DNA from: Paratrimastix pyriformis
Lineage: Eukaryota > Preaxostyla > Paratrimastigidae
NCBI GenBank assembly: GCA_027972325.1
Contig: JAPMOS010000113.1
Coordinates: 1 to 64,000, forward strand
DNA: 64,000 bases
Direction of reading: 5' to 3'
The notes under the pieces were generated by a model that was given only the letters and a program-made list of their open reading frames with translations, had not been told where the DNA came from and did no database searches. Each line of letters begins with the position of its first letter. Within the stretch, counting starts at the first letter, position 1. Position numbers and translations under genes: made by a program. This document shows, piece by piece, positions 18,591-42,915 of the stretch.

Positions 18591-18634
18591 GCGCAGAGGT
18601 GCGCGCATCCGAATGAATAGTTGAACTATTCATT
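18591..18634. repeat. double hairpin DH1
   Basis: Hairpin GCGCAGAGGTGCGC (18,591-18,604) is followed by the imperfect palindrome ATCCGAAT and a second hairpin with arms AATGAATAGT/ACTATTCATT (18,612-18,634). It shares its layout with DH2-DH6. Confidence 0.85.
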
Positions 18635-18719
18635 GCAGCTCTTCGTCGATGTGTACCTTTTGACTTACGTGGCTTCTTGGATGTATCCATTGTCTTCAAT
18701 AATAATACACGAGAAATTT

Positions 18720-19922
18720 TCAGAGGATCGATGTTAATGTAAATATGACAGCACCAAACAATAGGTATGGTGTGTAATTAGTAGATTCAGTGTCGGGTGT
18801 GACAGGCTCGACAGGAGTAATTGGTTCGACAGGTGTAATCGGCTCAACCGGAGATGATGGGAGATTCCCATCACCCGAGCCGGCATCAGCCGGCTTCGTA
18901 ATTGGTTCAACAGGACTCGGTTTTTCATCTTTTTCCTTCTTAGCATTTACAACACATTCATTAAGTTGTTGTATTTGGACATTTGTTAATGTGCCTACAT
19001 TCTTCCAATCTATTATATTACGACAATCAACACAAACTAAGTCACCCCATTGCGGTTTTGATGGCATCTCAGGCTTATTTACATTAATCTGTGCTATTCG
19101 TTGTGATAAGTACTCAGGCTTGTAATAAAATGTCATCATGAATTCACCCGTTTTGTTCTGACGGTTTAACTCACTCCATTCACATGATTGGACATTAAGA
19201 TTTGATAAATCGAGTCCATTTTGCTTAATAGTTGATGCAATGTATTTGTCCTTATCAGTCATCAGGCTGAAGGCAATCGAATCAATATTCCATAAGCCCG
19301 TGATTGTTGCATGGATGTATTGAATCGAATCATTCATAAAATACCATTTGTCAAACTTAGCATAATAGTCATCCATCTGTTTTAGGTATGAATCATTCAT
19401 TTTGATAATGTTTTGAACCCCTTTTTCACATTCAGATAACTCTTTAGGGGCTGAATCTTCAATGTCTTTCAGACAGTCCCAATTCTTAGCACATGACTCG
19501 ATCTTCGAACAGTTTACACACTTTTGGAACTGTGTCTCAGTAGTTGATTTAGCTATTGCCGGAAAAAACTCAGTATATGAATCAAAGTCAAAGTTGTTGG
19601 AGTGTGCAAAAGTTAATGCCTGTGGCACCGTGAAATCACTGTAAAAGGCTCTCGTTTTACTCCCTCCACGTAATGGCATTTCAACACGTAACTTAGCATA
19701 TAATGCCTTTAACTCACGCTTTCTGTCCTCACCTTCTACCTTCATCAAATTGTCATATCGACGTTTTGATATAAAGTCCATTTTCAACGTCAACCTGATG
19801 TAACTGACATTATTCTGTTGAAAAGCATTGATGAACTTACTTTCTGTGCAAAGCGCAGAGTTCTCTGCGCATTCGAATGAAGGGCTACGCTCTTCATTTC
19901 CCAATGAATTCCACTGAATCAT
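18720..19922 (-). CDS. Cys-rich C-terminally anchored Polinton membrane protein
   Basis: The frame is 400 residues from 19,922, but the double hairpin DH2 lies within its first 25 codons, so the real start may be the Met at 19,781 (MDFISKRRYDNLMKVEGEDR). The body has paired Cys (CVNCSKIESCAKNWDC and LVCVDCRN), then a Pro/Val/Thr-Glu stalk with VEPITPVEPITPVEP repeats, and a single C-terminal membrane segment (YLLFGAVIFTLTSIL). This layout (Cys-bonded ectodomain, stalk, tail anchor) suggests a virion surface protein. No family is recognised. It is divergent from the L1R-like gene at 19,970. Confidence 0.55.
   Translation of the reverse strand: MIQWNSLGNEERSPSFECAENSALCTESKFINAFQQNNVSYIRLTLKMDFISKRRYDNLMKVEGEDRKRELKALYAKLRVEMPLRGGSKTRAFYSDFTVPQALTFAHSNNFDFDSYTEFFPAIAKSTTETQFQKCVNCSKIESCAKNWDCLKDIEDSAPKELSECEKGVQNIIKMNDSYLKQMDDYYAKFDKWYFMNDSIQYIHATITGLWNIDSIAFSLMTDKDKYIASTIKQNGLDLSNLNVQSCEWSELNRQNKTGEFMMTFYYKPEYLSQRIAQINVNKPEMPSKPQWGDLVCVDCRNIIDWKNVGTLTNVQIQQLNECVVNAKKEKDEKPSPVEPITKPADAGSGDGNLPSSPVEPITPVEPITPVEPVTPDTESTNYTPYLLFGAVIFTLTSIL
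19853..19895. repeat. double hairpin DH2
   Basis: A perfect 8-bp stem GCGCAGAG-TT-CTCTGCGC (19,853-19,870) is followed by palindrome ATTCGAAT (19,871-19,878) and a second hairpin GAAGGGC-TAC-GCTCTTC (19,879-19,895) with one wobble pair. It lies between two divergent genes. Confidence 0.9.
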
Positions 19923-19969
19923 TCTTAATGCTATACAAGGTGAAATTTTCGATGAGTACTGTATACAAC

Positions 19970-20473: not shown

Positions 20474-20509
20474 CTGAAATATATTCTGAAGTGGATCAAC
20501 ACACAAAAG

Positions 20510-20623
20510 ATGAAGAAGAGCACGACATTGGAAACTGCCGATAACACTACTGCATTGATTGCTATTGCTGCTGTCTTAGTGGTTGGCGGCTTTATCTATA
20601 TGAACAAACAAAAGGGAAAGTAA
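20510..20623 (+). CDS. 37-residue single-span membrane protein
   Basis: The frame starts at ATG 20,510 (MKKSTTLETADNTT), has one membrane segment (ALIAIAAVLVVGGFIYM) and a basic end (NKQKGK), and stops at 20,623. It follows the L1R-like gene by 36 bp. Members of that family usually carry their own C-terminal membrane segment, so the two belong to one functional locus. Confidence 0.55.
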   Translation: MKKSTTLETADNTTALIAIAAVLVVGGFIYMNKQKGK

Positions 20624-20645
20624 TTTCAAATGTATATTATGTCAG

Positions 20646-21278: not shown

Positions 21279-21307
21279 GAATTTCTATTTGTATGGTATT
21301 GACAACC

Positions 21308-22210
21308 ATGCACAGAACAGTTGAAACTGTTAAGGAAAATCAACTTAATGATACTCTTCAAGAGCTCCATCACCCTAATAAGGTGATTCTTACGCCTTAT
21401 GATGAGGCTATTGCTAAGCAAGATGAAAGCTTAGCACAGAATGTTGTGAAGATAAGATTCGACAGTGGACAAACTGTGTTCATTAAGAAAGAATGGTATG
21501 AGTTATCTGATGTGTTCAAACAACCTGTCATTTTCCAATCATTTGAGCGTTACATGAAATGGATTTACCCTCTACTGAACAATTCCGGGCGCGACTTACA
21601 GTTCGATGACGATGTGGATTCCATGGCTGAACTCGGTGGATTCATTGAGGAGGTGTTTAAATACAAACTCGATAAGCTGCTCGTTGAATCTGTCGTGTGT
21701 GATGTATCACAAAATAGTGGACTCGTCGATGAGATACAAAAGATGAAACGTTACATCAATAAGTACGAATCCTCAATAAATTCATGCTGGGGTATCTTAA
21801 AGAAAAAGGTGACTGAACGGATGCAAAATTTCGAAAATGAATGGCTCGGATTTATCAAAATGTGGAGCGTCGTATATCAAAATGATAAGTATAATGGCAT
21901 CACCTACGATTTAATCCTGCAAGCTATCAAAGCAAACAACATAATTGACATCTGTGTGATGAATGTGAAATACAACAACATTATCTATAAGTTCATCCGC
22001 TACTTCGAGCTGTATGTCGTAAAGAATGATAAGACTGTCGTGTCAACCAATAAGTATGAACTCAGTTTAATGCTTCCTGATGCATCTGAAACTGTATCTA
22101 ACATCGCTACATCCATTTCTGGCATCATCACCAATACAAAAGTCCTCGATAAAAGCACATTGCTTCGTCAAGTATCAAATCTAATGTCGATGAAATCACT
22201 TACTGCTTAA
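21308..22210 (+). CDS. 300-residue hypothetical Polinton protein
   Basis: The frame is open from 21,293. The Met at 21,308 (MHRTVETVKENQLNDTLQEL) seems a likely start. The protein is alpha-helical with many Asn, Lys and Ile, with stretches such as VVKIRFDSGQTVFIKKEWYE and TYDLILQAIKANNIIDICVM. It shows no membrane segment. Its end overlaps by 15 bp the convergent VLTF3-like gene. No family is recognised. Confidence 0.5.
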   Translation: MHRTVETVKENQLNDTLQELHHPNKVILTPYDEAIAKQDESLAQNVVKIRFDSGQTVFIKKEWYELSDVFKQPVIFQSFERYMKWIYPLLNNSGRDLQFDDDVDSMAELGGFIEEVFKYKLDKLLVESVVCDVSQNSGLVDEIQKMKRYINKYESSINSCWGILKKKVTERMQNFENEWLGFIKMWSVVYQNDKYNGITYDLILQAIKANNIIDICVMNVKYNNIIYKFIRYFELYVVKNDKTVVSTNKYELSLMLPDASETVSNIATSISGIITNTKVLDKSTLLRQVSNLMSMKSLTA

Positions 22211-22651: not shown

Positions 22652-22724
22652 CTTCCTGTCTATATAAGTCCAATGATAACTGCATCAGACGCTTTCTCTC
22701 TGCTTTCTCATCCATCTCCTTCAT

Positions 22725-23438
22725 GATTAATATAACAATAGATTATATTAAATCAAAAACGACAAAAGTTAAAATGGAGTGGCTGCTTGAACTTAAGCAT
22801 CCACATATTAAACACTGCAAAGGCTAAAAAGTACACTTGAAAAGCAATGCTGCGTAACAATAGTTGTTCGCTACGATACTCTCGGGCGGAAGGATTTGTG
22901 GTCACTTGAAATCCCGGGTTCGTAGTGACGTGCAAAAAAGCACGAACGACATGAACTGTAAGTTCACACGGAACTGAAACTATGTTACCGTTATCGCTCT
23001 TCATATTGGTATTTTTTGCCTTCTAAGCAACTTACATGATTCCATGGATGTATTCTGTTCAGTGATAGCCTGCGAAACACTTTGAGCGCTTTTCAGTGCT
23101 TCCGGTTCTATTTGAACAAAATTCATTTGATGCTAAGCTCAATTCATGAGAAAACAACGCTGCGAAACACAATTGATATCTGAATGTGTTCCCGTCATTA
23201 TTTAATCACTGCATGGCTTCTCATCAAAACATCCAACCATTCAGTCGGCTTCTTGTGCAATGCACACAGATGTGTGCATTCGAATGAATGGTGCTACCAT
23301 TCATTGCATGTATGCGGCTGATAGAATAGCACCTTTATGTGGTACTACTCCATAATTACTATATTTCATAATTCTTTAAGCCATTTTTAGAAAATAATTT
23401 GAGCTATATGCATTATTTCATGTCACTTTGCTGAGCCT
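22725..23438. other. Polinton intergenic region with hairpins
   Basis: No firm gene. An 83-residue frame on the minus strand (23,004-22,753) has a short hydrophobic stretch and may be a small membrane protein. Hairpins CGTGC-A6-GCACG (22,929-22,944) and TGAACT-GTA-AGTTCA (22,952-22,966) form a pair resembling the double-hairpin family but lacking the central palindrome. DH3 lies at 23,261-23,305. Confidence 0.5.
23261..23305. repeat. double hairpin DH3
   Basis: Perfect 8-bp stem TGCACACA-GA-TGTGTGCA (23,261-23,278), overlapping palindrome ATTCGAAT (23,278-23,285), then a perfect 10-bp stem AATGAATGGT-GCT-ACCATTCATT (23,283-23,305). Confidence 0.92.
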
Positions 23439-24191
23439 TCAGTGATCCTGGTACTCATAAAGTGCATCCTTATCTTCCTTCTGTATCTTCTTATGGTTTT
23501 TTATCTTATCAAAAAGCATTTGCTTGTATTGCTCTTTGTTAGTCTTAGCTGAAATGCCTAAGTAGGTAATTGATGACTGCAAACTGTTCAATGTCTTCCT
23601 GAGTTGTGGTGGTAAGAGTTTCTTTGACTCTCCATACTGAAATACGAGGTCATCAAATGTAAAACTACTTTCACATCTTTGTTTAACCTGATTTGGATTC
23701 AATTTCAATGCTACACTACATGCATATAGTGACTTGTATATTGTTTTCTGACCATCAGTTGTATTTGTCACTATTACTTGAGTCCTTGCTCCTTTCACAT
23801 ATTTCTCCTTCTTCTTGTATTCTCTCGGCTTGTAGTTCGACAAATCCTTGCAAAAGGTCTTCTTGTATTTCTCCTGTTGGTATTCTTTGCGCTCATCTTC
23901 AGTGCGACATGCTTTAATCATATTAAGCATCTTGAAACCCTTTTCTGTATATTCTTTGATGTATTTCTCTTCTATCTCTTTAATGTTCTCACAATCACAA
24001 ATGGCTTCTATTTCTTCAATGGTAAACTTGTCAATACCTACTTCTCTCATTCTGCTGTAAAGCAGATGTGTACATCCACTCTTGACATGCGTTTTATGCA
24101 CTGCCCATCTCGAACGGATGTTCTTTGTTGAACCTATATATAATTCATTCGGCTCAACAGTGTTGACTATCTTATATATGTAGTATTTCAT
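23439..24191 (-). CDS. GIY-YIG endonuclease
   Basis: The N-terminus holds the GIY-YIG signature: YYIYKIVN, then ELYIGSTKNIRSRWAVHK, with the catalytic-type Tyr and Arg, and an aligned Glu further on (TIEEIEAICDCENIKEIEEK). The C-terminal part is basic, with a nuclease-associated helical DNA-binding look (LYACSVALKLNPNQVKQRCE, similar to the NUMOD/IENR helix). GIY-YIG enzymes cut DNA and include homing endonucleases. Length 250 residues is usual for the group in large DNA viruses. In the Polinton it could aid recombination or act as a free-standing homing gene. Confidence 0.85.
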   Translation of the reverse strand: MKYYIYKIVNTVEPNELYIGSTKNIRSRWAVHKTHVKSGCTHLLYSRMREVGIDKFTIEEIEAICDCENIKEIEEKYIKEYTEKGFKMLNMIKACRTEDERKEYQQEKYKKTFCKDLSNYKPREYKKKEKYVKGARTQVIVTNTTDGQKTIYKSLYACSVALKLNPNQVKQRCESSFTFDDLVFQYGESKKLLPPQLRKTLNSLQSSITYLGISAKTNKEQYKQMLFDKIKNHKKIQKEDKDALYEYQDH

Positions 24192-24467: not shown

Positions 24468-27400
24468 TTATTCTTTTGATTCTTCCATTTTAATCCGGTA
24501 ATGTCCATAAGCGTAACTGTCAGTCTTGTTTCTGAGATACCGTTTGTCATCATAAGAGCACAATGCAAACTTGTTCACTGCTACTGAATATAACTGATGG
24601 TACTTGCTTTGAATTGTGCAAAATTTCACCTTAGGATGTGCCTTATCAATCTCTTCTTCATTCTTTTTCTCCATCTCTTCATTCTTTTTCTTCATCTCTT
24701 CGTCAATCTCTTCATCAATCTCTTCATCATTCTGTTTGCGTTTTGGCTTCAGACATTCTGAGTTCAGACATTCCATGAATCTTTTGTGTGATAATTCTTG
24801 CTTGATTGCTGACTTCTTCACACCTTTGCATTTGGCATGCTTCTCTTCATCACCTTCTATGACATATGAATACATCTTCGAACGTAATCCACAGAACTCT
24901 ATGATTTGCTTGCCTTTGGCTTCATCCTTGAACTTTCCAATCTTGGCAATGTTTTTTTCGCTGAAGTGCATTGTCCTCTGGATAATTGGATGTATCGAGT
25001 TCGTCTTCAAATTCTTTCATGTCTTCGTAGATGTCTTCTGTCTCCACAGCTACACATAAACTGTCAGTGTCAGTGAATAGCAACTTGACTTTGTCCCCAT
25101 ACTTTGCTTTTAGCGTATTGTAGTAAAAGTCATACATGTGCATCTTGGATAAGTCTAATATTGATTGTCCAACTGCTATTGGCATGTTCAATTTGACTGA
25201 TGTCTGTCTTGCATGTATGCCTACGAGTTTATCACCAAATATCACTGTCTTCTCATAATTTGGCTTGGCTACGAGCTTACGTGCCTTCTCCTCACTGGAG
25301 GTTAGTGTAAAGTTGATATGAGAACGATTGTTCTGCATGGTTTTTCCAAATACTGCATTGTTTGCTAATTTGAAGAGCGCCTTCTCGAATTCATTCTTTG
25401 TTTTCGAACGCTCGTTGGTATTGAATCCTATGTAGTCTTCTAACCATATCTTGATTAAAACTCATCACTCTTTTGACTGCTTTCAGTTCCATTCCTAAAC
25501 TCAAATATAGCTGGAGTGCCCGATAATGCACAACGTAATCATTCTTATCTTCAAAATCGCAAATCAACTTCTCAACTTTCGCCTGCTTTAGGCTTAAATT
25601 CGTCTTCAACAACTTCTGGTATTCAGATAACTTTTCATCTTCTACAACCTTCTTGCATGGCGCTAATGGATAATCATTGTGCATGTCATGTAGTTCTTTT
25701 GGATATGATAAATCCACTTCTAATATGTAGCCTCTATCTCCATTCTTGTCTAATGACATTATCTTGCTCTTCGTGAACTTGCTTACGTTCTTTTCCCATT
25801 GAAAATCAGTCGTTGGTAGTCTGTAACTCATTGCTTTGCCGTATAGGTTGTTAGCATCGAGATACAGAATATACACCGTTTTGCCCTCTTTGTTGTATGT
25901 CTTCATGTACTTGTTGTTGGCTTGACAATATCTGTTCGTTATCATTGAAATCCCTCCTCGAATACCCTTCTCAATAAACAAATGCATGTCCATTTGTGTG
26001 TCATTAAATAAGTCTAACTCCACCTTCGAACGCTTCAATGCCGCATCCCATGACATTGCTGGTAATGACACGTAACATACCGGATCGAGCCCGTAATTTT
26101 TCATACACATGCTACGAAACTTTTCGAAGACATCTGCTAATAGTAACACATCAGTTTTAAGGTATATGTCATGATAATCACCTAACGTTTCACATTCAAA
26201 TGTGTTCCATACTGTCTGTGCATGTACATAATCTTCATCAGATATGGCTTTATCATTTAGTTTACTGTAAAATGCTTCCTTTGGTGGCAATTCAGTCTCA
26301 TCGAACTTCTCCATTGTGTTCAAATAGTCATATGGATAAACACCCTTCTGGCATAAAAGTTTCAGGTTCTCTTCACTGATTCCTTCCCAATCTGCTTTTG
26401 TTCTGATAAAATCATCGTAGTTGTTCTTCCCTAAGTTCTCTGATAATTTATCCAATGATTCTGTCATGAATGCAAAACTGTCTTTGAACTCTATATTTCC
26501 ATCCATCGAGAACGACAGATACTTCTCTTCAGTCAATGCTAAGCATGTAATTTTCTCACTAAAGTTCCCTATTTCTTGCATTAAGAGGTGAGAATCATAA
26601 CCTTTTAGATTGTGAAAGAAAACTGGTACCTTGTAATTCTTAAGACTGAATGATAAGTTACATCCATTATGTGCTGCTCCACGATATTCTCCCGTAATAT
26701 GATCATGGTCTCTCACTTTATCTGATTCATCTTCAATCTCTTGTCCACAAATATGACATACAGTGGCTTTATCAAACTCTTTTTGTTCTTCCTTCGATAA
26801 GTTCATCTCACAGTTCCTTTTGACTATCTTCAGTATCGTTTCTCGCTCTTCAATGATGGATTTTAAGAAATGCTCAACTGCTCCTTCACCACGATAGAGT
26901 TGTATTGGTCTCTCAAACTCAGGATAAGTGCTGACAACTTTGTATGCATATGAACACACATTATGGTGCTGATATGCTGCTTTTATTTTTTTCTCATCGT
27001 CATCATCATCAATTGGCGTTGTGAGTGCTTCGAAATCTGCATAAATCGCAAAAGGTTGCTTCACTGATTTTGATATATGCTTGAATTCGACATGAGCATC
27101 TTCTTCTATTGGTAACCATGCTTGACAACATTCATGTTCATAGCACACTGGTTTATGCCTTTGCAACAGGCTTTCATTCCAAAATCCATGCATACAGTTC
27201 AGACAAAAATACTTTTTTCCATTGTGGCTGTTCTGGCTTGAACTTAAGAGACGAGACAAATCTTTAATCAACACATAATGTGAGTTGGTTTCTGTCTTCT
27301 CACATCCTTCTCCTTTCATCACCTCTGTATTTTCATCGAGCTCTGTTATACGTAGCATATTGACTACTGTTTTAGCCGTATTCCAAATTGGTGAGACATA

Positions 27401-28392
27401 CAATGGATTGAAGACAACTGATGTCTTCTTCTCCTTCTTAACCTTTTTTGTTGTGATATGATGCTCGATCACATTGATGGCTATGTTATTTTTAGCTTCA
27501 AATCGTGGTATACTGTCAATTTCCATTGGAAAATGAATGCCCTTAAAGTCGAGCTCATTGTCATACTTCATGTATTGCTTCACTCTCCGGATGCACATCA
27601 ACTGGATGCAATGTTGCTCAAACACTCCATTTAAAACACTCATTGTCATCATTCTGAATATTTATCAATGCTTTCTTCTGGTTCAATACCTCTGGTAATT
27701 CAATGTAACTGCTTCCACGCATTGGCTTGTATGAGGCTACATTCAAAAACACATTCTCAATACGTTTTAGGACCCATGCACTTCCATTGTTAACAAAATT
27801 GTCCACGAGCTCTTGGATTCTCGACACTGCATTCCCAATTCCTTCTTCAATGTCTTTCTTACCGAGAATTCGAATGCTGCCCGACGAAAAGTGTCCATAC
27901 ATTGACTTGTCTTCTTTGGTGAACTGACATTTCAACACGATGTTCAGTTTGAACTGTCCTCCCTTCATCTCTTCATATAATATCTTTTTTATCATTCCTT
28001 CAGTGTCCACAAAACATCTCTCAACACTTTGCTTGTAGTCAGTTGCCTCGATCTTTCCATGGTTCATAATCGAATAGTTCTTCATAAAGCCTTTCATGGC
28101 TTTCTTGCATTCTACCACTTCATATTGTGCTATTTTTCCAAACTCATCTTCGACGTTTTCTGCTCCTTTTGTTGATAAGGCATCTACATCAATAACTTCT
28201 TCTTGTGCAATCTTCACTTCTTTCTTTTCTTTCTTCTTTCTTTTCCTCTTTTGGTGATGCTGCCTGACGTTTATTTATGTATTCTTCGAACAACTTCTTC
28301 GCCTCTTCATCTGAGAGTCCATCAAATGCAACAAATGGATTTGCGGTTTTAGTTGTCATGTCTATAGTAGTGTGAGATAAAATTTTTTTCAT
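24468..28392 (-). CDS. protein-primed DNA polymerase B (Polinton POLB)
   Basis: The locus reads right to left: an N-terminal region from 28,392, a conserved module ending SSYIELPEVLNQKKALINIQ just before the exonuclease domain, Exo I (YADFEAL), Exo II (FHNLKGYDSHL), Exo III (YLKTDVLLLADVFEKF), Pol A (LYLDANNLYGKAMSY), Pol B near 25,330 and Pol C (FTDTDSL) near 25,070, then a Lys/Glu-rich tail. A zinc-finger-like HNH-type module (CHICGQEIE...HDHITGEYRG) lies in the N-terminal half. This is the protein-primed family-B polymerase that replicates the element. As a fossil it has a few breaks, with the long segment 27,652-25,391 the best preserved. Confidence 0.92.
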
Positions 28393-28461: not shown

Positions 28462-28930
28462 ATGGAAAAGTCCATTCAGAATGCTTATAGCGATCCTAAA
28501 ACGGGCTTTGTTTCTGCTCCTAAATTGTATCGAAAACTAAAACAAGATGACAAGAAAATCACCTTAGATGCTGTCCAAAACGTGCTAAATAAGACACCTG
28601 ATTATCAAATCATGAAAGAAGATAGAAAACCCAAAAAGTTCAACACGATTGTGGCTCATACTGCTCTCGCATGTGTTCAGATGGATATCATCATCTATGA
28701 TCGTTTTAAGACGAGAACTGGATTCGAGAACATCCTCTGTGTTATTGATGTGTACTCTCGTTATGCTGCCTGTCGTCCACTTAAAACAAGAAAGCCCTCT
28801 GAGGTTCTCAAAGCAATTAAAAGTATCTTCCATGATGACTTAAAAGGTACTCCTGAAAACATCAACTGTGACAATGAATTCCAAGCTAAACAATATGTCA
28901 AATGGATGACTGATAATCATGTTGTGGCTC
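28462..28930 (+). CDS. Polinton integrase, N-terminal and core part
   Basis: This part holds the N-terminal domain and the first two catalytic Asp regions of an rve-type integrase: CVQMDIIIYDRF, then LCVIDVYSRYAACRPL, then INCDNEFQAKQYVKWM. It ends at the LINE target-site duplication. The remaining part, including the catalytic-type Glu, is at 7,929-8,484. Integrase inserts the element and makes the 6-bp duplication seen at its ends. Confidence 0.88.
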
Positions 28931-28940
28931 ATTTCAGTGA
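28931..28940. repeat. LINE target-site duplication, 5' copy
   Basis: ATTTCAGTGA lies at the point where integrase coding stops and the LINE starts; its partner is at 8,485-8,494. Confidence 0.85.
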
Positions 28941-29015
28941 ATTGGATGCCCGGTCCTACCGACCTGGAAAGTGTTTGAATTTGGGATCTTCGCCTTTTCT
29001 ATTGGCCAATTGACG

Positions 29016-33159: not shown

Positions 33160-33990
33160 AGGAGGATCGGGTGAGGGTGGTCGGATGGAATGTGCGGGGC
33201 TGGGCTCGGAATGGAAAAGAAAAATGTAGAAGATTTGCTAAAGGTGGGTCGAACGGACATAGCGCTCTTGCAGGAGACGAAAGGAACGAGGGACAACAAG
33301 GAGTTTTTGCAGGAAAAATGGATGAAGGGGTGGTGCTGGAGGAGCTCTGTGGCGGAGGAGTCTGTTAAGAGGCACCCGAGAGGGGGTGATGATTGGGTAT
33401 AGAAAAACATTGCAAGTGGCAGTGCGAAAGATTACGGAGGTGATTCCTGGTTATCTCATGTTTATGGACTGGACGGAGGGGAAGAATCAGATGAGACTCA
33501 TCAACATGTATTTTCCTACTGGAGACGGAGAGGCGAACGTGAGGGTAAGGAGTGTGATCTTGGAGCGGTTGGAGGAGTGTGTGGCGGGGGGGGCGTCGGA
33601 TGGGAGAGGAGTCGTGGTGTACACAGATGCGAACGGATGGGCTAAGGAAGGAGGGGAGCAAGAGAAACTGGGATTGTATGATGTGGCGAAGATGGTTGGG
33701 AAGGCGGGGAGATAACTTTTATCCGGAGCCGGAAGGGTGGGACGGTGGCGAAAGAGGAAGAGCATGAAGGGAAGGGAGGGCCCGGTTGGATTTGTGTCTG
33801 TCGACGCAGGGGACAATGGGGAGGGTGCTGGACAATTTGTTTGTTTGGCGGAATGATGAGATTCAGTGGCAGGCGGTCACGGATCACCACATGATTGTAA
33901 CGGATCTCCGAAACATGGCGCCTTCTGCGGTGAAAATGGCTCGGAGGAAGGTGGCCATCTGCCCTTCCCCGGACGGAGGTGGAGGCACTG
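33160..33990 (+). CDS. LINE apurinic-like endonuclease (APE)
   Basis: Motifs of the APE family appear in order: VRVVGWNVRGW (Asn), DIALLQETKG (Glu), QMRLINMYFPTGDGEA, VVVYTDANGWAKE (Asp-x-Asn), RVLDNLFVW and QAVTDHHMIVTDL (the usual S/TDH). The enzyme nicks the target DNA to prime reverse transcription. The domain is spread over more than one frame (33,190-33,402, 33,386-33,715, 33,786-34,019), so small frameshifts are present. It directly precedes the RT frame. Confidence 0.88.
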
Positions 33991-35960
33991 TTGCGGGACA
34001 AGAAGAAGGAGGAGTATGATGTTATGGTTGGGAAAATGGGAAAGTACCGTGGGAAGGTTGCGCAAATGTTGCGAGAGGCAGCTGTGAAGGGGGAGGAGCC
34101 ATCATTTGAACAGATGAGTGAGTTTCTTCGGGTAACAGCTGGCTGCGTTTTCGGCTATAGGGATGTGATGAATACGGATCGAGATTTTGAGCCTTTCAGG
34201 ATAAAGAAATTGAGGAGGAGAGCGCTGGCGGAGGAGGACTTGAGTAAGAGGAAGGAGATGTTGAAACAGTTGGCGAAGATGAGGTCGGTGCATTATGGTA
34301 AGAGAGATAGGGCATTGGAGGGAAAGCGCAAGCGTATCTATAAGGGTATCATGACGGATGGCGCGGCGCCAATTACAACCTACGTGACTCGAAATGCGGA
34401 GGGGAAGATGGACAGGGTGGTGTCGGACCCGGCGGAGGTTAAGAGGGGATGGTGGGGATTCATGGCGGGGCTTGCAAAAAGGAAGCTGCCGTTGGGGGAC
34501 GGGGGGCAAAGACTGAAGGAGGTAACGGGAGGCGTGGGTGGAAGGGTAATTATGGCCCCTCTGACGACGCATGATATCCAGACAATACTGGGGGCTTTGC
34601 CGGACGGGAAAGCGGCTGGCCCGGATGGAGTGACGGCGGAGATGGTCCATGCTTGTCAGGACGAAATTAAGGAGTGGTTGGGGAGGCGATACAACGAGAT
34701 GTTGGAGAAGTCTGAGGTTCCTGAGGAGCTGAAACTTAGCTCGGTCTATATGGCAACCAAATCGCAGACGGAGCATCCGGGGGATCCGGCCGGTAGAAGG
34801 CCTATAACTTTAATACAGGTTTTTTTGAAAGGACTGCAGGTAGTGATTGCCTCGAGATTTCAAGACTGGTGCGTTGAAAAAGGGGTATTCGGGGCGGAGC
34901 AGTTTGGTTTCCTGAGGGATCGGAGGATTGAGACGCCTATTGCCGAGATTTTGGGGGTGTTGACGGACTCGAAGATTATGGGAGGTAAGGAGTTCCACAT
35001 GTGCGCGCTAGATATAAGAAAGGCCTATGATACAGTTGACATGGAGGCGCTCAGAAGGGGGTTGAGAAGGATGGGGGTGGAAGAGGAATTTGTCAGGTAT
35101 GTGGACAGCTTGTATGAGGGGAGAAAGGCGCGTGTGATCACGGGGTACGGGTTGACGGATAGCTATGACATTGAGAGAGGAATTAGTCAAGGGGACCCGT
35201 TGTCCTGCCTGCTGTTTATCTCCTTCATGGAGGGAGTCTTGGCGGAGGTGAGACGACAGGAGGGGGGCTATATTCTGGATAGCGGCAGGAAGGTAAAGGT
35301 GTTGGCATTTGCGGACGATATTATGTTGGTGACGAGAACAAGGGAACAGATGGTCCGCTTGGTGAATACGGTAAGGCGGAAAGTGGAAGAGGCTGGTATG
35401 GAGCTGTCGTGGAGCAAGTGTGACTACCTGTGTGGCGGGGTGAAGGGGAAGACGGACTTGGATCTGGGAGAGGGTCGGAAGATCAGAGTGCAGCAAAAGG
35501 GTGGAGCAATTCGGTATCTTGGGATATGGATAGATGAGGAGATGAACATGAAGGTCAACACGGAGAAGGTGATCCAGAAAATGTGTGGGCGACTGCACAG
35601 GCTCATGGACAAGAAGGTCCCTCCGAGGTTGATGGTGCAAATGATTAATGAGTGTGTCTCGACTTGCCTACAATACACGGCGAGGCAGTGCCCAATGCCG
35701 ACAAGGGACTTGGAAACACTGAAGCAGAGATATGCGAGGGTGTTCAGGGAAATCGGAGGTTGTATTGGGAAATGCGACCCGGCAGAGGTGCTGTTCTTTC
35801 CGGAGGAGGAAGGGGGTATGGGGCTGAAGGACCCGATTGATGTCCATGATATGATGGTGATGACACAAATTCTGGGGAGGATGGCGGACGAGCAGGGGTG
35901 TGGAGTGGTGCTGAGGGAGGAGATCGTGCTGCTGCAGAAATTGTGGACGTCATGCTCACC
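33979..35960 (+). CDS. LINE reverse transcriptase
   Basis: The frame is open from 33,979 and stays in LINE sequence until the break at 35,960. RT motifs are GALPDGKAAGPDGVTAEMVH, RPITLIQVFLKGLQVVIASR, motif A ALDIRKAYDTVD, motif B GISQGDPLSCLLFISFM, motif C VLAFADDIMLVTR and the following YLGIWIDEEMN. The thumb region continues to EEIVLLQKLW, where T sequence replaces it. The domain makes cDNA at the nicked target. The frame continues into T sequence to 36,075 by chance. APE plus RT plus downstream RNase H points to the I/R1/Tad/L1-plant side of LINE diversity. Confidence 0.93.
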
Positions 35961-38230
35961 CGGTCCCGCGCGGGGTGGTGGCCCAGGCATGTCGAGCACA
36001 CGATGCTTCCCTCCTAAACGTATTTCGTGTGAAAGAGCAACGGGGGGTGTTTCCCTCGGTTCCGAAAGAGTATAAGACCTCTGAAACGTGGTGTGGCGAC
36101 CGCCATGGTTCCATGTGGGACATGGAGTCCGGACCGAGTCATCGTGTCTCCGATCCGAAACCGGGGAGTTGGCTGCTCCCCTGGTGCGCGCCCAAAATAG
36201 ATGAAGCTCCTCTCTTGCAACCGCCAGTGTGTGTTGAAGAGGGAGAAGCTCGCAGTGTGCGTTGTTGTAAAATCCTGCGAGTTGTGCCGCAGGAACGTGC
36301 GCGCCTGTGTGCCCGCAGATCATCAGGGCCATGAGTCGGCTCCCTGGTCGAACGGTGCGTGGTGGACATGGGACCTCCTGCCTTGCCCCGCGACAACATG
36401 GGCTCCGCGACAACACGGCCACGCGAAGATGGTCGAAGCCAAGCGTTCTGGCGAAGTGAGAGGTTCGAAGTGGGAGGTTTGCCCTCTGGCACAAAGAATG
36501 GCCACGGAATGAAGAGGGCGACGTGAAGATGCCAAGTGCAGACCCACAAGACAACTGGTCGATTGTTCAGAAGTGACTCGGAGCGTTCGCTATATTCTCC
36601 TCCCGAGCGACCAGGTCAATCAACCCCAGATGGAAGACCGGCTTGAGAAGAACTTGAGCGCGAAATGAGTTGCGCGCGTGACCAGTAATCGTGCGAATTT
36701 CAGAGTCACACGTGGACTAAACGCTGATAGCGGAGGTCATCCACTGACGTGGGCCCAGAGCGAGTGCACGGGCGTCCCTCGCCGGATAACCGTTGACCCA
36801 GCATTCCATTCATCTCATTGTTCGATCCTGAAAAACCCATGAAGGATTTTGGCCTGAAATATTTGCCAACCAGGTGTTTCGACAGACTGAGTGGCTCCGC
36901 AGAGTCTGAGACATGGCCAGAAGAGAGACCACCAGCATTTCCGAGATCCTCTAAGCCGCCTGTCAAATGACACTGGTGATGAAATTCCTTCAAAGGAATT
37001 GAACAGACTGTATGAAAAAGTTTGTTGTTGTGCCAAACGAGCACCGTGGGGTCGAACGAACAGAGTATCGAACTGATTCGTCAGCCCTTTCAACCGCAAA
37101 GTCAAATCGACCAGTGAATAAATTCCTTCAAAGGAATTAAACAGACTGTACAACAGAGGTTGCTGGCGTGTCGAACGAGGCCCGTGGGGCCGAATGAGCA
37201 GAGTATCAAACTGATTCGCTCAAAACGTGACGTGGTGGTCTGGTGGGTCTGTCAGTGAACGTATGTATCAAGGTTGCTTTGAAACTGAACCGACACCTCA
37301 AGCAGGCATCCTTCGTCCCGAAGCAATGAGTATTCCAGCGCATGTCACACGGTGACCAGGCACCAACGAACAGTGCCATTCCAAAGGAAACTGGGGTGAT
37401 ACCCCAACCGAAAGTCTTTGCGGAGGATGGCGCAAATTGGCCCAAGCCCAACGAGCTCAGCCAGTTCAAAGTTGCACGCAGGACGGTCACGAAAACGGAA
37501 TAAAGACTATCTTTCTTTGCTTTTCCGTTTTGGTTTTTCTGATCTTTGTTTGGAAGTTTTTGTTTCCTTCCGTTTTGGTTTGTAAAAAACAAAATATAAA
37601 GCGAGTGCTATTGTGACGCCACAGACCCGGAAAGGAGGACCCAGATTCTGAGATTCCAGGTGATTCTTCTCCAGTCCGTCCGGGAAAGTTGAACGGCCGG
37701 CAAAAGGGCCTGTAACCCTCACAAAGTAAAACGCGGCGACCCACGAGGAGGTGGGAAGAGAGAGACGCGATGAGTTGATCAATGAGATCAGTCGTTCAAG
37801 GCTACAAGGCAGGGGTTGAAAAGTGACAAGGCGGCCTTGAAAAATCAATTGAAATAAGGCCAGCACTTTCAGAGCGCCAAAGGAGCGGCACGTTGGCCGA
37901 CATCTCTTAGATCATTCCAAAAGTCAACCCAACTCGACGAAACAAAATGCAAGGTCTTCAGAGCTCTCGAGTAACTATTCGAAAATTCTTGAAAAAGCAT
38001 AGAAACCCGAAAACCCGGGAATAAAAGATGCGTTGCGATTTGCTTATTGCTCAAAAGGACGAGTCGACTGCCGGCACTGACATGACATGTCAAATTCTTT
38101 TGATAAAATTTTTGGATGTCAGTGCCGTTTTGCGTGCTTGCTGTGCAAGTGTTCACTCTTTCTTGGTTTGGGTTTGTTTGGGGCTATCCCACGAAGGCTG
38201 TCCCTCGTTCTCCGAACTCGTGAAGGAGAA
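35961..38230. mobile_element. element T, second piece
   Basis: This non-coding block lies between the LINE break and the 6-bp duplication at 38,231. Its right end has the same long repeat as the first piece. A 138-bp tandem repeat lies at 36,982-37,230. No transposase or other domain was recognised. Long open frames on both strands here have no coding character. Confidence 0.6.
36982..37230. repeat. 138-bp tandem repeat, about 2 copies
   Basis: AAATTCCTTCAAAGGAATT recurs at 36,982 and 37,120. Each unit starts with the palindrome AATTCCTT-CA-AAGGAATT and ends with CAGAGTATC-AACTGATTCG type sequence. The copies are diverged. Confidence 0.75.
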
Positions 38231-38236
38231 GGTGAC
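38053..38236. repeat. T long terminal repeat-type end, copy 2, with duplication
   Basis: 38,053-38,182 matches 16,139-16,268; the last part (CTATCCCACGAAGG...GAAGGAGAA) matches 14,570-14,615. It abuts GGTGAC at 38,231-38,236, whose complement GTCACC borders copy 1 at 16,300. Confidence 0.85.
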
Positions 38237-38620
38237 AAGATGAGTGCCTATAAGAGTTAGGTAATTTGGATTTTTATTCATCCACTGGTTCAAAATGAGT
38301 GTTTTCTGAGTTGAATCAAGGTTTATTGAGAGGAACATGATGCGTTTCATACAAATAATGCATAAAAAGTTTCACCTGTCACAAAAAAATTTTGAGACGA
38401 TGAGACATAGTCTCATCACCCGGGTGAAGGGCATGTGCCCTTCATCACATGAGATATTGCATGTTGACAAGTTGTTGACATAACCCATCCAACACCATAT
38501 TCTAATAGGTTTTTGTGTGTAGTTGAAGGCTGTAATGGTGACATTTTGCTCATTTTCACTTAATTGTGATGCAACCTTAACTTTACTGAATCGTGAGGTT
38601 GACTTAGAAATTTTCACCAT
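38231..38620 (-). CDS. Polinton structural-type gene, other part
   Basis: Sequence such as KVASQLSENEQNVTITAFNY and YTQKPIRIWCWMGYVNNLST is clearly protein-like, and a second stretch (MFLSINLDSTQKTLILNQWM) runs up to the edge of T. The rest of the gene is at 16,306-16,530. The double hairpin DH5 lies within the locus. It is probably a beta-rich virion protein; I cannot name it. It is a broken fossil part. Confidence 0.45.
38399..38444. repeat. double hairpin DH5
   Basis: Perfect 8-bp stem GATGAGAC-ATA-GTCTCATC (38,399-38,417), palindrome ACCCGGGT (38,418-38,425), then perfect stem GAAGGGCA-TG-TGCCCTTC (38,426-38,443). Confidence 0.92.
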
Positions 38621-39083
38621 TTTTGCCTATACAAAACGGTAACTCGTGACAGAGCGTAGATCGACGTTCACAGCCACGGCTTTTTCGAAACAGCACCATA
38701 TGAATAAGATAGCTCGACATTTGCTAAGAAATCTGACACTTACTTAACGTGCACGGGGCTGCACAAGTTTTGACGCGTTCGATTTTCAATACAAACTGAA
38801 CTTCTTCCTTTTATCCAAATCGTTGTTCTGACACTGAATTTCAGTGCCGGGACTTAGTTTAAACATAGAACATCAGTGACTTTTCATGCTCGTATGTGGT
38901 ACTGTCACAGTACTTTAAGTGCATGTCAAAAAGTGATATCTCATGTCAACCTCTGGAAAACATAAGGTATGACTTTTTATGAATGCATTCAGTCATCGAT
39001 GATGACTGAATCGATTGGATGAGTATCATCCAATGCCTACATGTTTTCTTACATAACTAAATGATTCTAACGCCTTGGATCAC
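38621..39083. other. Polinton intergenic region with DH6
   Basis: AT-rich sequence downstream of the capsid-like gene and upstream of the structural-type gene. No gene is seen. It holds the double hairpin at 38,987-39,034. Confidence 0.6.
38987..39034. repeat. double hairpin DH6
   Basis: Perfect 11-bp stem ATTCAGTCATC-GAT-GATGACTGAAT (38,987-39,011), a central palindrome AATCGATT (39,009-39,016), then perfect 9-bp stem ATTGGATGA-GTA-TCATCCAAT (39,014-39,034). Confidence 0.92.
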
Positions 39084-41785
39084 TTAGTTCTTGTGTTCTA
39101 CAGTCAAAGTGCCTTGTTTTGTGTTATATCGATACCATGCTCGTCCGTATGCTAATACATTCAAAGTACAGTTATGAGGCAATCCCGCTGTGAAAGTCAC
39201 GACTAATTTAGGGTTAGAATACTCTTTTAGCACAATGGTACCATATACATTGCCGTATGATTCAATATCATCATCCTTGCTTGGTAGTCCTGAAAAGCGT
39301 AGAGTGTAGATGTTCTTGTCAAATGCCTTCCGGAAATACATCATCTGTTGGAATTCTTGCGATTTAGCACTGATGGCTGTATCTGGATAGTTCTTGTTGT
39401 CAACAGAAAGGTGATATTCCGAGATATAGGCTGTTCCGGTGAATGGTGCTCCTGTCGTGTCATCAGACAGATACATCGACAAATACTCAACTTCATCAAA
39501 TGGTAGGTCACATGTTATCGATGTGGCACCTTGTGAGATTAGATACTTGGTTGAATCAACGAATTCATTCTGTACTGTAACCATTCCTGCTTCATCCATA
39601 CTGCTTCGTAGAATTGCCTTCTTCTCATCTTCATGCATTGTCATGTAGTTAGCTACGAGTTCAACATCGAGGAAAGTGTTGGTTAATGTAGCTCCAACTG
39701 TGGAAGATGATGCAATTTCTGATAGAGGGGCAATTTCTACTTCAAAATAGGGATTTGCTTGTAAGATGTCGAGCCGTAGAGGGTTAAAGTCAATGAATGG
39801 ATTTGGTATGTAAATCAGTCCTTCCTGTTGTTGCGATGGATCAATGTCTGTGCCGGTTGCTCCAATACGTGCGTTCTGCATCATCAGTGATTTGCGTTCC
39901 TGTATGGCACGCTGGTAATATTGATATATACCTGCACTGTCCAACTTGTATATTTCACGTCCTTGGTGCTTAAACTTAAGGGATTTGATGAGCTTCATCA
40001 TGTATCCACCTACGTAAGTCACCGTGCCGGCTGATGCTGTAGTAGCTCCGAGTCTGATGTGTAGGTGTATGTCATTACCTGAGAGTAGCCCGCTGTATTT
40101 ATTAATGTCAAACTGTGCGACACTTCCAAATGATATTTGCCGGTTAGGTTTGATTACTACCGGATCCGTTACAGCGGGCCCCGGTTGAAGTCTCGGCGTT
40201 GCACGTTCCCTTTGCTCCGCGTTCTGCCCGTTTCTGGCCATGGAGATCGCCACTGAGCATGACGAGCTCAGTAAGGACGATTCCAACTTTATTATGGATC
40301 ACGCCGAGATCCAAAGTCGTGACGACCCTATGGTAGAGTATCTTCAAGATGAGTTGGGTCGGCATCTGTGGTCCCCCTCTTCAGCTCCATTGGACAAGCT
40401 CTCTCCTTGGATGCGTTTGGAGCTTATGAAGCTCTTCAGTTCATTGGTCGTCAATGAGCACCGTGCTCCACGCTATGAGATCATCGAACGCACGGTGCAC
40501 ATGCTGCTGGAGGACAATCCGAAGAAGCAGCCTGAAGCGATCAGCCAGTTTATTTTCCAACTTCTTGGGGCTTTATTGTTCCAGCAATCGAATGTGCGAA
40601 CTTTCGACTGCCACGTGCCACAAGAATCATCGCGCGGCTCGTCTGTGGACAAACACCGCACACCGCCAGAACGAGTCCTCCTATCTGTTGGGGAGACTAC
40701 ATACCGTGGTCCAAAGCAACTTGGAGGTGGAGGTGGAACTCGCCACCCGATCATCGATGGCGATCGTCCAGCGGGGAAGAAGGAGAGAGCCCGTTCCCCT
40801 TCTTCGAGCAATCCATTTGCCTCTTCCGCTGCCCCAAGAGCACCTCTCACCTTGGCGAACCCATTCGCCAAGCCGGCACCTGTTCCGGCTCCGACTTCAT
40901 CTCATGCTCCGGCTTTTGCGCCTGCGCCTGCACCTGCACCTGCACCTGCACCTGCACCTGCACCTGCACCTGCACCTGCACCTGCACCTGCACCTGTTGC
41001 TGCCCCTGTTGTTGCTGCCCCTGTTGCTGCCCCTGTTGTTGCCCCTGTTGCTGCCTCTGTTGCTGCTGGTGTGTCCCCTTTGTCTGCTGTGCCTGCTGCG
41101 CCCGCTCGTGCTACCTCGACGCCCGACCATGCCGCTTCTGCCGTGCCTCCGAAGATTAGCCTCTCCGACCTCTCGCCTGTTGCCAACCGTGGGCCTTTGG
41201 GAAGGGAGCAACGTGTGTGGGGGTGGTGGATTCAGGGGCCCGTGCGCCTGTCCTACCGAGGTGGTAGGTCATGGTGGATGGGTTCCGCCCCCCCCTCAGG
41301 CTGGGTTCGGGAATATTTTTCGTTCTAACTGTTCTTGTCTTTTGCTTCCTTCGCCCCCTTTCATTGTTCCTCGTGTCCCGTGTCTCAGTGTTGGATCCTT
41401 TTGTCCCCCCTTGCCCCGTTCTTTCTTTTGATGTTCCTTCTGTTTGCTGTCAAGTGTTTGAACGATTCTGTTTCCTGGCGACATTCCAGTCTCTCTCTTT
41501 CCCGCCATGCCGTCTGTGCGCCTACCCCTGAGGGGGTGTAGGTCGGCATGTTACCCGCCGGTTTCGACCGGATGAACGGATTTTCTTCTGTTTCAGTTTT
41601 CTGTGTTTTGCGCGCAGTTACTGGCAGTCGAAATAGTATCACAACAACAACAACAGATCCGTTACAATCTTAGGCTTGCGTATCTTAGTGGTTTTGTCAT
41701 CCGTAAACTCATTGATTTTGATTGCATTCCTTTCGAGGTCTGAGTTCTGTGTGGTGTGCGACTTTAGAATAATTGCCGTTGCCAT
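39084..41785 (-). CDS. major capsid-like protein (Polinton)
   Basis: The main part, 40,162-39,084, reads KPNRQISFGSVAQFDINKYS, then HLHIRLGATTASAGTVTYVG, ANYMTMHEDEKKAILRSSMD and ends CTLNVLAYGRAWYRYNTKQG. The N-terminal 40 or so residues are at 41,785-41,667 (starting MATAIILKSHTTQ). A 1.48-kb retroposon with an 11-bp duplication lies between them. The strand-rich sequence, length near 400 residues and neighbouring packaging ATPase fit the double-jelly-roll capsid protein of Polintons. I assign it by context and look rather than a diagnostic motif. It is interrupted by the insertion. Confidence 0.6.
40163..40173. repeat. retroposon R1 target-site duplication (pair at 41,656)
   Basis: GATCCGTTACA occurs at 40,163-40,173 and 41,656-41,666, flanking R1. 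Confidence 0.92.
40240..41328 (+). CDS. R1 protein with helical domain and Pro-Ala tail
   Basis: The frame begins MEIATEHDELSKDDSNFIMD. Residues about 30-125 look helical (RYEIIERTVHMLLEDNPKKQ, then EAISQFIFQLLGALLFQQ), resembling the R2 protein at 45,124-44,700. A disordered Ser/Pro/Ala part with (PA)n, encoded by a CCTGCA hexanucleotide array, follows. The end of the frame past about 41,200 may be read-through. The domain could be an ORF1-type RNA-binding or self-assembling module. No known family is recognised. Confidence 0.55.
   Translation: MEIATEHDELSKDDSNFIMDHAEIQSRDDPMVEYLQDELGRHLWSPSSAPLDKLSPWMRLELMKLFSSLVVNEHRAPRYEIIERTVHMLLEDNPKKQPEAISQFIFQLLGALLFQQSNVRTFDCHVPQESSRGSSVDKHRTPPERVLLSVGETTYRGPKQLGGGGGTRHPIIDGDRPAGKKERARSPSSSNPFASSAAPRAPLTLANPFAKPAPVPAPTSSHAPAFAPAPAPAPAPAPAPAPAPAPAPAPAPVAAPVVAAPVAAPVVAPVAASVAAGVSPLSAVPAAPARATSTPDHAASAVPPKISLSDLSPVANRGPLGREQRVWGWWIQGPVRLSYRGGRSWWMGSAPPSGWVREYFSF
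40918..40998. repeat. (CCTGCA)n microsatellite
   Basis: About 13 units of the hexanucleotide encode alternating Pro-Ala in the R1 frame. A degenerate CCTGTTGCTG-type extension follows to about 41,070. Confidence 0.93.
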
Positions 41786-41823
41786 AGTGTGATAATCAAT
41801 ATCATACTAAGATAAAAAAATAC

Positions 41824-42915
41824 TCAAATTATAAAAATTATGCCTATTTTGTGTTTACTGCCTTCGTCCCAATGCTCTTCTGCCTTTTTCACCTTGGATC
41901 TGTAATCTTCTTGAGTTTTGGAGGTATCCCAAAAGGCATTGTAAAGGTTAAGGTAATTGTCATGTAACAAAGGCTTGATCACCAAAATGTTGTGGTCTGC
42001 TGTCACTTTCTCGAATAGTTCTAAGAAATCTGCCTTCTTCATACACGACATATAATCATGGTATATCATGTCTTTCACTGAGTCATTCTTGGTGTAATGG
42101 ACGAAACAGTAATTGGTGTTCTGCCTTGTTCTTGGTGATATACCTGTTGGTATTTGTGTCGTCAGAATGACTGAGATGTTGTATCTTCTGTGATTGCAAA
42201 ACAGACTGCCTAAAATATTACTTTGGTGTAACTTGTTGTTGCCATCTAAGATATCGTCAAATATCAATAAGACTGACTTCTTGCCTTTTGTCTTCTCTTG
42301 GAACTTGATTAGCTTCTCAATGAATAATGGTGTCTCATCATCGTCAAAGCCTCCAAAACATTGATCATCCGGAATGTTCCCTAACTCTTTCTGATATCTG
42401 TCTTTATTGTCTTGTGCGACAGTAAATAGGTAGATCTTGTCGATCTCACTTCGTATCTGCTTTATAATGGAGAGAACTGATGTCGTTTTACCACTCTCTT
42501 TCATACCATAATGTAGTGAAATAAAAGGCTCTTTCTTGTTTTTGAACCTATCTACAATCTCTAATGAACTGAACTTAGGCATTTTGACATTACCTACCTT
42601 GACAATGCTTGCATCATCTTCTTTTACTTCAGGTGGAATAAAGACAACTTGTTTCTGCTCAATTTGCTCATCTTCTTCAACTTTCTGCTCTTCTACTTCC
42701 GCCTTCTTCAATTTCTTCTCTTTCTTATCTTTAGTTACCTTCTCTTTCTTCTCTTTCTTCTCTTTTGGAGGAGCACATTTATGCTTCTTAAGCCACTTCT
42801 CACTCTTATATTCTTTCCCACACTCAGGACACTTATATACTGTAATGTCCATATCCTTATGGACATTCGAATGAATGGTTTCACCATTCTTTGCCTTAAC
42901 TGAGTCAGACGACAT
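41824..42915 (-). CDS. Polinton genome-packaging ATPase (FtsK/HerA type)
   Basis: The N-terminus has a C2H2-like zinc finger (YKCPECGKEYKSEKWLKKHK) and a long Lys/Glu linker. The ATPase core has Walker A YGMKESGKTTS, Walker B VLLIFDDI and the downstream VILTTQIPTGIS typical of the sensor region of A32-like packaging ATPases. The double hairpin DH4 lies in the first 25 codons. The start may be the 42,915 Met or an internal Met just upstream of the zinc finger (MDITVYKCPEC). The enzyme would pump DNA into the capsid. Confidence 0.9.
   Translation of the reverse strand: MSSDSVKAKNGETIHSNVHKDMDITVYKCPECGKEYKSEKWLKKHKCAPPKEKKEKKEKVTKDKKEKKLKKAEVEEQKVEEDEQIEQKQVVFIPPEVKEDDASIVKVGNVKMPKFSSLEIVDRFKNKKEPFISLHYGMKESGKTTSVLSIIKQIRSEIDKIYLFTVAQDNKDRYQKELGNIPDDQCFGGFDDDETPLFIEKLIKFQEKTKGKKSVLLIFDDILDGNNKLHQSNILGSLFCNHRRYNISVILTTQIPTGISPRTRQNTNYCFVHYTKNDSVKDMIYHDYMSCMKKADFLELFEKVTADHNILVIKPLLHDNYLNLYNAFWDTSKTQEDYRSKVKKAEEHWDEGSKHKIGIIFII
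42844..42889. repeat. double hairpin DH4
   Basis: Perfect 10-bp stem AATGTCCATA-TCCT-TATGGACATT (42,844-42,867), palindrome ATTCGAAT (42,865-42,872), then perfect 7-bp stem GAATGGT-TTC-ACCATTC (42,873-42,889). It lies at the 5' end of the ATPase frame. Confidence 0.92.

Follow-up and report, generated by a model that had tools for sequence, protein, structure and literature searches.

The Locus and Its Mobile Double Hairpins

The DNA considered here is a stretch of 64,000 nucleotides from Paratrimastix pyriformis (contig JAPMOS010000113.1, positions 1 to 64,000), referred to in the following as the window; it sits on a contig of 131 kb (C17) in a genome of 56 Mb. Its AT-rich stretches hold a Polinton, which carries PolB, an rve integrase, an A32-type ATPase and a GIY-YIG nuclease; in the window PolB, rve integrase and A32 ATPase stand together in one element, the combination by which a Polinton is recognized. 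Seven double hairpins centred on CG lie in this stretch (Table 1), and comparison with other copies of the Polinton in the same genome identifies them as members of a family of mobile elements.

Each element consists of a stem of 7–11 bp with a loop of 2–4 nt, the dinucleotide CG, and a second such stem and loop; mismatches and G-T pairs are limited to a few places in the stems. Six of the seven had been listed in an initial annotation of the window and all six are present, S7 being an addition. The layout given there, hairpin, 8-bp palindrome, hairpin, is right as to the two hairpins but not as to a separate palindrome: ATTCGAAT is simply CG plus three bases of each flanking stem. The elements were said to lie between genes or at gene starts, which fits: S1, S2 and S6 are in N-terminal parts of open reading frames (ORFs), and S3, S4 and S5 lie outside ORFs of at least 100 aa.

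The elements are far more frequent than expected from base composition. In positions 16001–50500 of the window seven CG-centred double hairpins reach a score of at least 16, against a mean of 0.010 (maximum 1) in 200 dinucleotide-preserving shuffles of the same region, the kind of check that had been proposed with the initial annotation. Double hairpins with any centre number 8 against a shuffle mean of 0.43 (maximum 4), and a stricter count (loops of at most 5, near-perfect stems, any centre) gives 4 against a mean of 0.05 in 40 shuffles. The folding energy, calculated with RNA parameters, is for each of the seven 3.9 to 5.9 standard deviations below that of its own shuffles. Rfam gives no match in the window at gathering score. 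In the window ends (1–16000 and 50501–64000) there is no CG-centred double hairpin at a score of at least 15; one appears there, at 8592, when the threshold is lowered to 14.

Table 1. Double hairpins, their empty targets and remnants, and genes of the carrier Polinton (positions in the window).
Feature	Position	Strand	Pfam	Remarks
S1	18586–18634			type 1; 10-4-10, CG, 10-3-10; flanks TGC/GCA
S7	18853–18895			10-3-10, CG, 7-4-7; inside ORF 18720–19922 (-), C-terminal part
S2	19850–19898			type 1; in frame near N-terminus of ORF 18720–19922 (-)
S3	23259–23305			type 1; 10-2-10, CG, 10-3-10; flanks TGC/GCA; outside ORFs of at least 100 aa
S4	38396–38446			type 2; 11-3-11, CG, 10-4-10; target TTGA^CAT; outside ORFs of at least 100 aa
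S5	38987–39034			type 1; 11-3-11, CG, 9-3-9; flanks GC/GC; outside ORFs of at least 100 aa
S6	42844–42892			type 1; in frame at N-terminus of the A32-type ATPase ORF
Empty A1 target	21418–21421			in ORF 21293–22210 (+); filled in L011, L013
Likely element remnant	24486–24511			one arm, AATGTCCATA, left; L028 carries A5 there
Empty B3 target	38602			type 2 (TTGA^C); filled in L019
Empty B1 target	38926			type 2; filled in L014, L069, L074, L080
Empty B2 target	38946			type 2; filled in L013, L068
Empty A2 target	41874–41875			type 1 (one GC); filled in L023; near C-terminal end of the ATPase ORF
GIY-YIG nuclease gene	23439–24191	-	PF01541	Polinton core
PolB	25391–27652	-	PF02945	protein-primed, Polinton; embedded endonuclease VII domain
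rve integrase	28462–29013	+	PF00665	Polinton
A32-type packaging ATPase	41824–42915	-	PF04665	Polinton; N-terminal zinc finger; carries S6

Filled and Empty Alleles

The A32-type ATPase has 119 matching stretches across the genome, many of them partial, and the genome therefore holds many copies of the Polinton. Pieces of this genome's DNA, other Polinton copies among them, numbered with L in the following, were fetched by means of the word CATTCGAATGAA, the ATPase and two motifs; 231,795 bases entered the hairpin count. Because sampling was anchored on these, other types of element are under-represented. The word itself occurs 83 times in the genome and its reversed control not once. When the first 24 of its sites were read, 23 proved to be double hairpins, some of them decayed; the site in L009, in GC-rich DNA, was rejected as a double hairpin on reading.

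Among the copies 70 CG-centred double hairpins were found, which represent 17 distinct insertion sites (S1–S7, A1–A5 and B1–B5). A script made 10 clusters (neighbouring sites share flanks), which were then split by their immediate flanks. Empty alleles are present at 11 of the 17 sites, with totals of 48 filled and 75 empty, a count that leaves out the remnant in L042 and the rows classed as other (L068 at S5, L026 at B1) and retains the decayed L044 and L045 as filled. At S6, for example, 17 alleles are filled (the window copy included, two decayed), 10 are empty and one is a remnant; S5 has 4 filled and 9 empty alleles, and S4 has 8 and 4. The single empty allele at S2 (L024) has 70-bp flanks that are 100% identical. 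A2, A3 and B3 are each filled in one copy only and empty in 3, 7 and 10, respectively, from which it follows by parsimony, applied to the counts and not to a tree of the copies, that the insertion is the derived state. Over 200 bp per side the flanks of filled alleles match those of empty ones at up to 100% (L023 and L016), so some insertions are recent. The occupancy of sites thus differs between copies, and since empty sites with type-specific target offsets are found at 11 of the 17 sites, the double hairpins are mobile elements, as the initial annotation had offered as one option.

The element S7 is present also in L028. In L016 (positions 2732–3975, contig C61) S6 is directly adjoined by some 1.24 kb of inserted DNA, likely another transposon, the two ends of which share a repeat of about 7 bp.

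The elements keep to the DNA of their carrier. The GC content of the flanks is 0.34–0.45 for each of the 43 CG-centred double hairpins in this comparison, which thus lie in AT-rich Polinton DNA, as had been claimed for the window, although the pieces were picked by element motifs. Fetched DNA with a GC content above 0.5 (87.6 kb) contains no CG-centred double hairpin. Neither does a second Polinton-like family, whose ATPase is 26–27% identical (window 57–62 kb, L063–L065; score at least 15). The window member of this family is an A32-type ATPase gene at 57088–58017 (+), 27% identical to the first ATPase, in a stretch with a GC content of about 0.5; relatives on contigs C247, C215 and C447 mark the family.

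Two Types and Their Targets

The elements fall into two types, with S7, the second hairpin of which has only 7 bp, placed in neither. Type 1 (S1, S2, S3, S5, S6 and A1–A5) is 47–49 bp long, with stem bases that mostly read RRYG...CRYY. GC adjoins the element on its left side at 9 of 10 sites and on its right side likewise at 9 of 10 (post hoc P 1.5e-12 per side), and the offset is −2 in 32 of the 34 listed empty alleles. Type 2 (S4 and B1–B5) is 51–52 bp long, its commonest form being GACGAT...ATCACC CG GGTGA...TCATC. In 5 of 6 sites TGA stands to the left and AC to the right, i.e., TGA^C (post hoc P about 4e-10), and in 36 of 42 empty alleles the offset is −1, a 1-bp duplication at TGA^C. The foot of an element is marked by RRYG/CRYY, with GC or TGA outside.

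The usual type 1 element adds 51 bp (17 codons), so that its insertion into a gene can preserve the reading frame. S1, S2, S6, A1 and A3 each add 51 bp and the frame stays open; in the case of S1 it is a frame of 91 aa in a small minus-strand ORF starting at 18690. S3, A4 and S5 add 49 or 50 bp, and no open frame of at least 100 aa runs through them, a length that the S1 frame does not reach either.

Six sites of both types (S4, B5, B3, B1, B2 and S5) lie in one intergenic stretch of about 640 bp (window 38390–39034). This is possibly an insertion hot spot, though sampling was anchored on these very element types.

Kept Pairing, Loop Inversions and Shared Halves

When aligned elements are compared pair by pair, the stems are found to change on both sides at once. 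In type 1 (six elements, 120 pair cells) there are 17 two-sided and 3 one-sided changes and 6 unpaired cells; in type 2 (five elements, 95 cells) 14 changes are two-sided, none is one-sided and no cell is unpaired. These counts omit S3, S5, A4 and A5 of type 1, B5 of type 2 (found later) and S7, and for type 2 also left-stem positions 2 and 3, where each of the five elements has a mismatch (A.C, C.A). With 31 two-sided against 3 one-sided changes, structure rather than sequence is indeed what is kept. Most changes replace a Watson-Crick pair by a different one and few are G-T steps; slow selection in RNA would account for this pattern less well than copying between the arms at the level of DNA.

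Loops can be inverted within kept stems. At S3 the loop in L082 and L083 is the reverse complement of that in L085 and L086, and at B1 both loops are inverted at once between L070 and L071, the left flanks of which are identical over 150 bp.

Halves and whole elements recur. A2, which in L023 lies close to where the ATPase gene ends and thus at a different locus from S1, is of the S1 type apart from three differences. The stems of B1 are those of S4 while its loops are not, the two apical stems of B2 recur one in B3 and the other in B4, and hairpins of the AATGAATGGT type are found in S3, S6 and A4, each with a different partner. Near-copies at other loci together with shared halves suggest that elements are copied and that their halves are re-paired at the CG. 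The observation in the initial annotation that stem sequences differ from site to site therefore holds within the window and not across copies, where hairpins are shared and two pairs of sites are near-identical; its argument that independence of the stems speaks against recent copying falls with A2 and B1.

The double form is the unit in the main lineage. In the fetched bases all 44 hairpins that combine the stem-base motif with a perfect inner stem (21 distinct) abut CG, and all 21 distinct sequences are halves of listed double hairpins.

How the Elements May Move

Our preferred reading, which we hold to be fairly probable, is that the double hairpins, about 50 bp in length, are mobile DNA that has inserted many times in one Polinton family and is likely moved in folded form by an enzyme acting in trans. 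In single-stranded Polinton DNA the element would fold into its two hairpins. A nuclease-ligase or transposase would recognize RRYG/CRYY, the conserved bases of the stems, together with the central CG, cut at the foot of the hairpins and join the folded strand to a short target. Arm-to-arm copying at the hairpin during replication would keep the stems perfect while apical stems drift fast and loops flip, and exchange at the CG would reshuffle left and right hairpins. During protein-primed replication long stretches of Polinton DNA would be exposed as single strands; this would favour an element that folds, and may be the reason that insertions are confined to Polinton DNA.

Several observations weigh against this reading. 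The first concern the alleles. At S3, S7, A4 and B4 no empty allele is present in the fetched DNA, and copies without the element at S1 and A5 still contain traces of it (at S1, L020 has a deletion remnant). Type 1 empty alleles read GC in 3 of 3 cases at A2, 1 of 3 at A1 and 4 of 9 at S5; the others at A1 read GT (2 of 3) and at S5 TC (5 of 9), and S2 (AT, 1 of 1), S6 (TC, 10 of 10) and A3 (GT, 7 of 7) have no GC at all. Non-GC empty alleles thus occur at 5 of the 6 type 1 sites that have empty alleles, A2 being the sole site with GC throughout. Because so many read other than GC, type 1 insertion is not a plain 2-bp duplication; the element may itself supply some of the GC, in the manner of a 2-bp crossover, or excision may have produced some of the empty alleles. 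In type 2, the empty alleles at B5 read CTGA^C in 4 of 9 cases and CCAA^C in 5 of 9. Moreover, A2 adds 51 bp and yet stops the ATPase frame early, altering the last residues.

The second group concerns lineages and relatives. In a diverged Polinton lineage (L061:6701–7740 and L062:6780–7760) hairpin pairs are centred on AG/CT, one pair being repeated, and a 23-bp insertion with a single hairpin is present in L061 and absent from L062; the rule of a double hairpin around CG is for this reason limited to the main lineage. Outside this genome no double hairpin was found in relatives, as far as scans of IMG/VR and two PolB contigs go. Scans of IMG/VR for exact motifs found 10 and 1 stretches; the stems are paired in none of these, which therefore serve as a control. 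A32 ATPase relatives were not found in IMG/VR, either by single sequence or by alignment; the protein set contains nine. The search with a PolB alignment led to 2 distant Polinton contigs, which have no tight double hairpin at spacings 0 to 4.

The third group concerns the mover. Searches of the genome in six frames, exon by exon, gave no match to the Y1 transposase domain PF01797 (the control was positive in 5 of 14 genomes) and none to the serine resolvase domain PF00239, and the sole match to the Helitron-type domain PF14214 (C74:48159–48583, -) has no seen link to the elements. Since Y1 and serine domains were not found, the mover may be a nuclease of the Polinton, a diverged enzyme, or an enzyme of a non-integrated virus. 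Finally, movement of the IS200/IS605 type is not expected to give a true target duplication.

Movement as folded DNA in trans nevertheless appears favoured when the alternatives are considered. The first is that the elements are tiny relatives of miniature inverted-repeat transposable elements (MITEs), moved as double strands by cut-and-paste, in which case RRYG/CRYY would be very short terminal inverted repeats and the hairpins by-products. The near-constant 2-bp and 1-bp offsets with their target preference, the short inverted ends and the insertions derived by parsimony are what such elements would show. However, not just the ends but also the inner stems stay paired while their sequence turns over, loops invert, and apical stems recur in new pairings. 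A 1-bp duplication is also unusual for cut-and-paste transposases. No solitary hairpin that could be the end of a longer parent is found in the fetched DNA of the main lineage, and no parent transposon sharing the ends of the elements was seen in the fetched DNA, the whole genome not having been searched by ends. We therefore regard this explanation as unlikely.

Slightly less likely again is a route via RNA, in which a hairpin RNA would be copied back into DNA by a reverse transcriptase. Reverse transcriptase genes are located in or near the Polinton (33979–36075 and 52005–54353), and such a route has been proposed for the yeast element GC42 (PMC4478555). Poly(A) is absent from the junctions of empty and filled alleles that were inspected, and inversion of a loop within a kept stem is a change at the level of DNA.

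It is very improbable that replication slippage or strand switching builds the palindromes in place, with no movement at all. Slippage would account for perfect stems, the scarcity of one-sided changes and loop flips, and small inversions driven by hairpins are described for plastid DNA (PMC5910586). It leaves unexplained, however, why near-identical elements are present at unrelated loci and why empty alleles show a type-specific offset at GC and TGA^C targets. Slippage may act on top of mobility.

That the double hairpins are functional signals of the Polinton (translation control, transcript ends, packaging or recombination sites) is the least credible of all. The structure is strong, and with five elements the frame remains open; yet empty alleles, 75 in all, make 11 of the 17 sites polymorphic within a single family, A2 terminates a frame, and relative to genes the elements show neither a common side nor a common distance. 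The processing, recombination and translation control considered in the initial annotation are unneeded and do not predict empty sites. A hairpin rule for transcript ends as in mimiviruses was dropped because the sites lie inside frames and are polymorphic.

Comparison with Known Systems

In 2000 Paquin, Laforest and Lang reportedly described double-hairpin elements (DHEs) in the mitochondrial DNA of Allomyces and other fungi. Together with the yeast mitochondrial GC clusters these are the closest known systems, and the elements here work in a similar way. The comparison with mitochondrial double hairpins made in the initial annotation is apt: in both cases two hairpins of tens of bp are kept in structure while the sequence varies, and mobility is inferred from presence or absence between relatives, to which orthologous presence and absence are found to correspond here. 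The carrier here is, however, a Polinton integrated into nuclear DNA rather than mitochondrial DNA, and the elements have a fixed CG between the stems and two types with their own targets and offsets. Paratrimastix pyriformis (Preaxostyla) is anaerobic, and its mitochondrion-related organelle is not known to contain DNA; COX1 has no match in the assembly. A spliced HSP70 of the host agrees at 99% with the HSP70 of this species, on which ground Allomyces, considered as host because DHEs were described there, was dropped; an alga was dropped because LHC proteins gave no match.

The yeast mitochondrial GC clusters likewise differ in their carrier, which here is a virus-like element. They are characterized by a short direct repeat; here the offset is 2 bp (type 1) or 1 bp (type 2), and the empty alleles of type 1 often do not read GC. 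GC42 has conserved stems and variable loops (PMC4478555), whereas in the present elements the sequence of apical stems is replaced through matching changes and loops can be inverted. For the GC clusters several routes of movement are discussed, none of which is settled on (PMC4478555).

The organelle palindromes of Volvox resemble the elements in size (about 50 nt), loops (3–5 nt) and many copies, and their nuclear copies are taken by the authors as inert transfers from organelles (PMC2670323). The insertions here are in contrast polymorphic among near-identical nuclear copies, and no organelle source is seen. In-frame insertion into genes is known from the palindromic elements of Rickettsia; here the frame stays open at S1, S2, S6, A1 and A3 but is broken by A2, and no kinship is claimed.

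The nearest proposal with a worked-out mechanism is that for the bacterial REPINs, hairpin doublets thought to be moved by a Y1 transposase and showing compensating changes in their paired parts (PMC3116915; PMC6006769). The doublet as the proposed moving unit, a short conserved foot motif, compensating changes, and the view of singlets as defunct are points of likeness (PMC3116915; PMC6006769). It should be noted, however, that the REPIN foot motif is GTAG/GTGG (PMC3116915; PMC6006769) and the one here RRYG/CRYY, that REPINs are described there as inverted REPs (repetitive extragenic palindromes) with a spacer whereas the hairpins here abut CG and have short target offsets, and that a cognate Y1 (HUH) transposase was not found in this genome. 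As a tentative proposal, a real possibility short of probable, the elements may be to this eukaryote what REPINs are to bacteria: a parasite of folded DNA that exploits a nuclear virus-like element, comprises two or more families with different target words (GC; TGA^C), rewrites its own stems, shuffles its halves at CG, and has arisen in a lineage without mitochondrial DNA independently of the double hairpins of organelles.

Among the papers listed in searches of an open-licence library no description was found of double hairpins in Polintons, of palindromic elements in Polintons or virophages, of such elements in connection with Polintons or transposable elements of Paratrimastix, or of hairpins in the Mavericks of Trichomonas; in the one paper that has "double hairpin" together with "Polinton" the former concerns tRNA and stands in the reference list. 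What is new here is a variant of mobile hairpins that is carried by a Polinton and some insertions of which are recent. The many near-identical copies of the carrier in one genome allow filled alleles to be compared directly with empty ones at junctions defined to the base, and because these alleles, two target rules and loop flips are visible together, models of a folded strand, of cut-and-paste and of an RNA copy can be checked against each other. A further layer of parasitism also becomes apparent: a 50-bp element lives off a Polinton, which is in turn a resident of a protist genome.

Other Features of the Window

The ORF of PolB lacks the C-terminal part of its relatives. Pfam gives only the endonuclease domain for it, without a DNA_pol_B match of its own, and many of its relatives among the matches listed are annotated PF03175 (DNA_pol_B_2). 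A putative capsid gene of the Polinton, guessed by eye, lies at 39084–40286 (-). The two reverse transcriptase genes (RVT_1, both on the plus strand) lie in GC-rich DNA, the first within a GC-rich block (about 29–38 kb) that is flanked by AT-rich Polinton parts. A direct repeat of 130 bp, 100% identical, is found at 16139–16268 and 38054–38183, 21.9 kb apart. Outside the Polinton, at 2775–3343, a 142-bp repeat unit with a long hairpin is present in five tandem copies.

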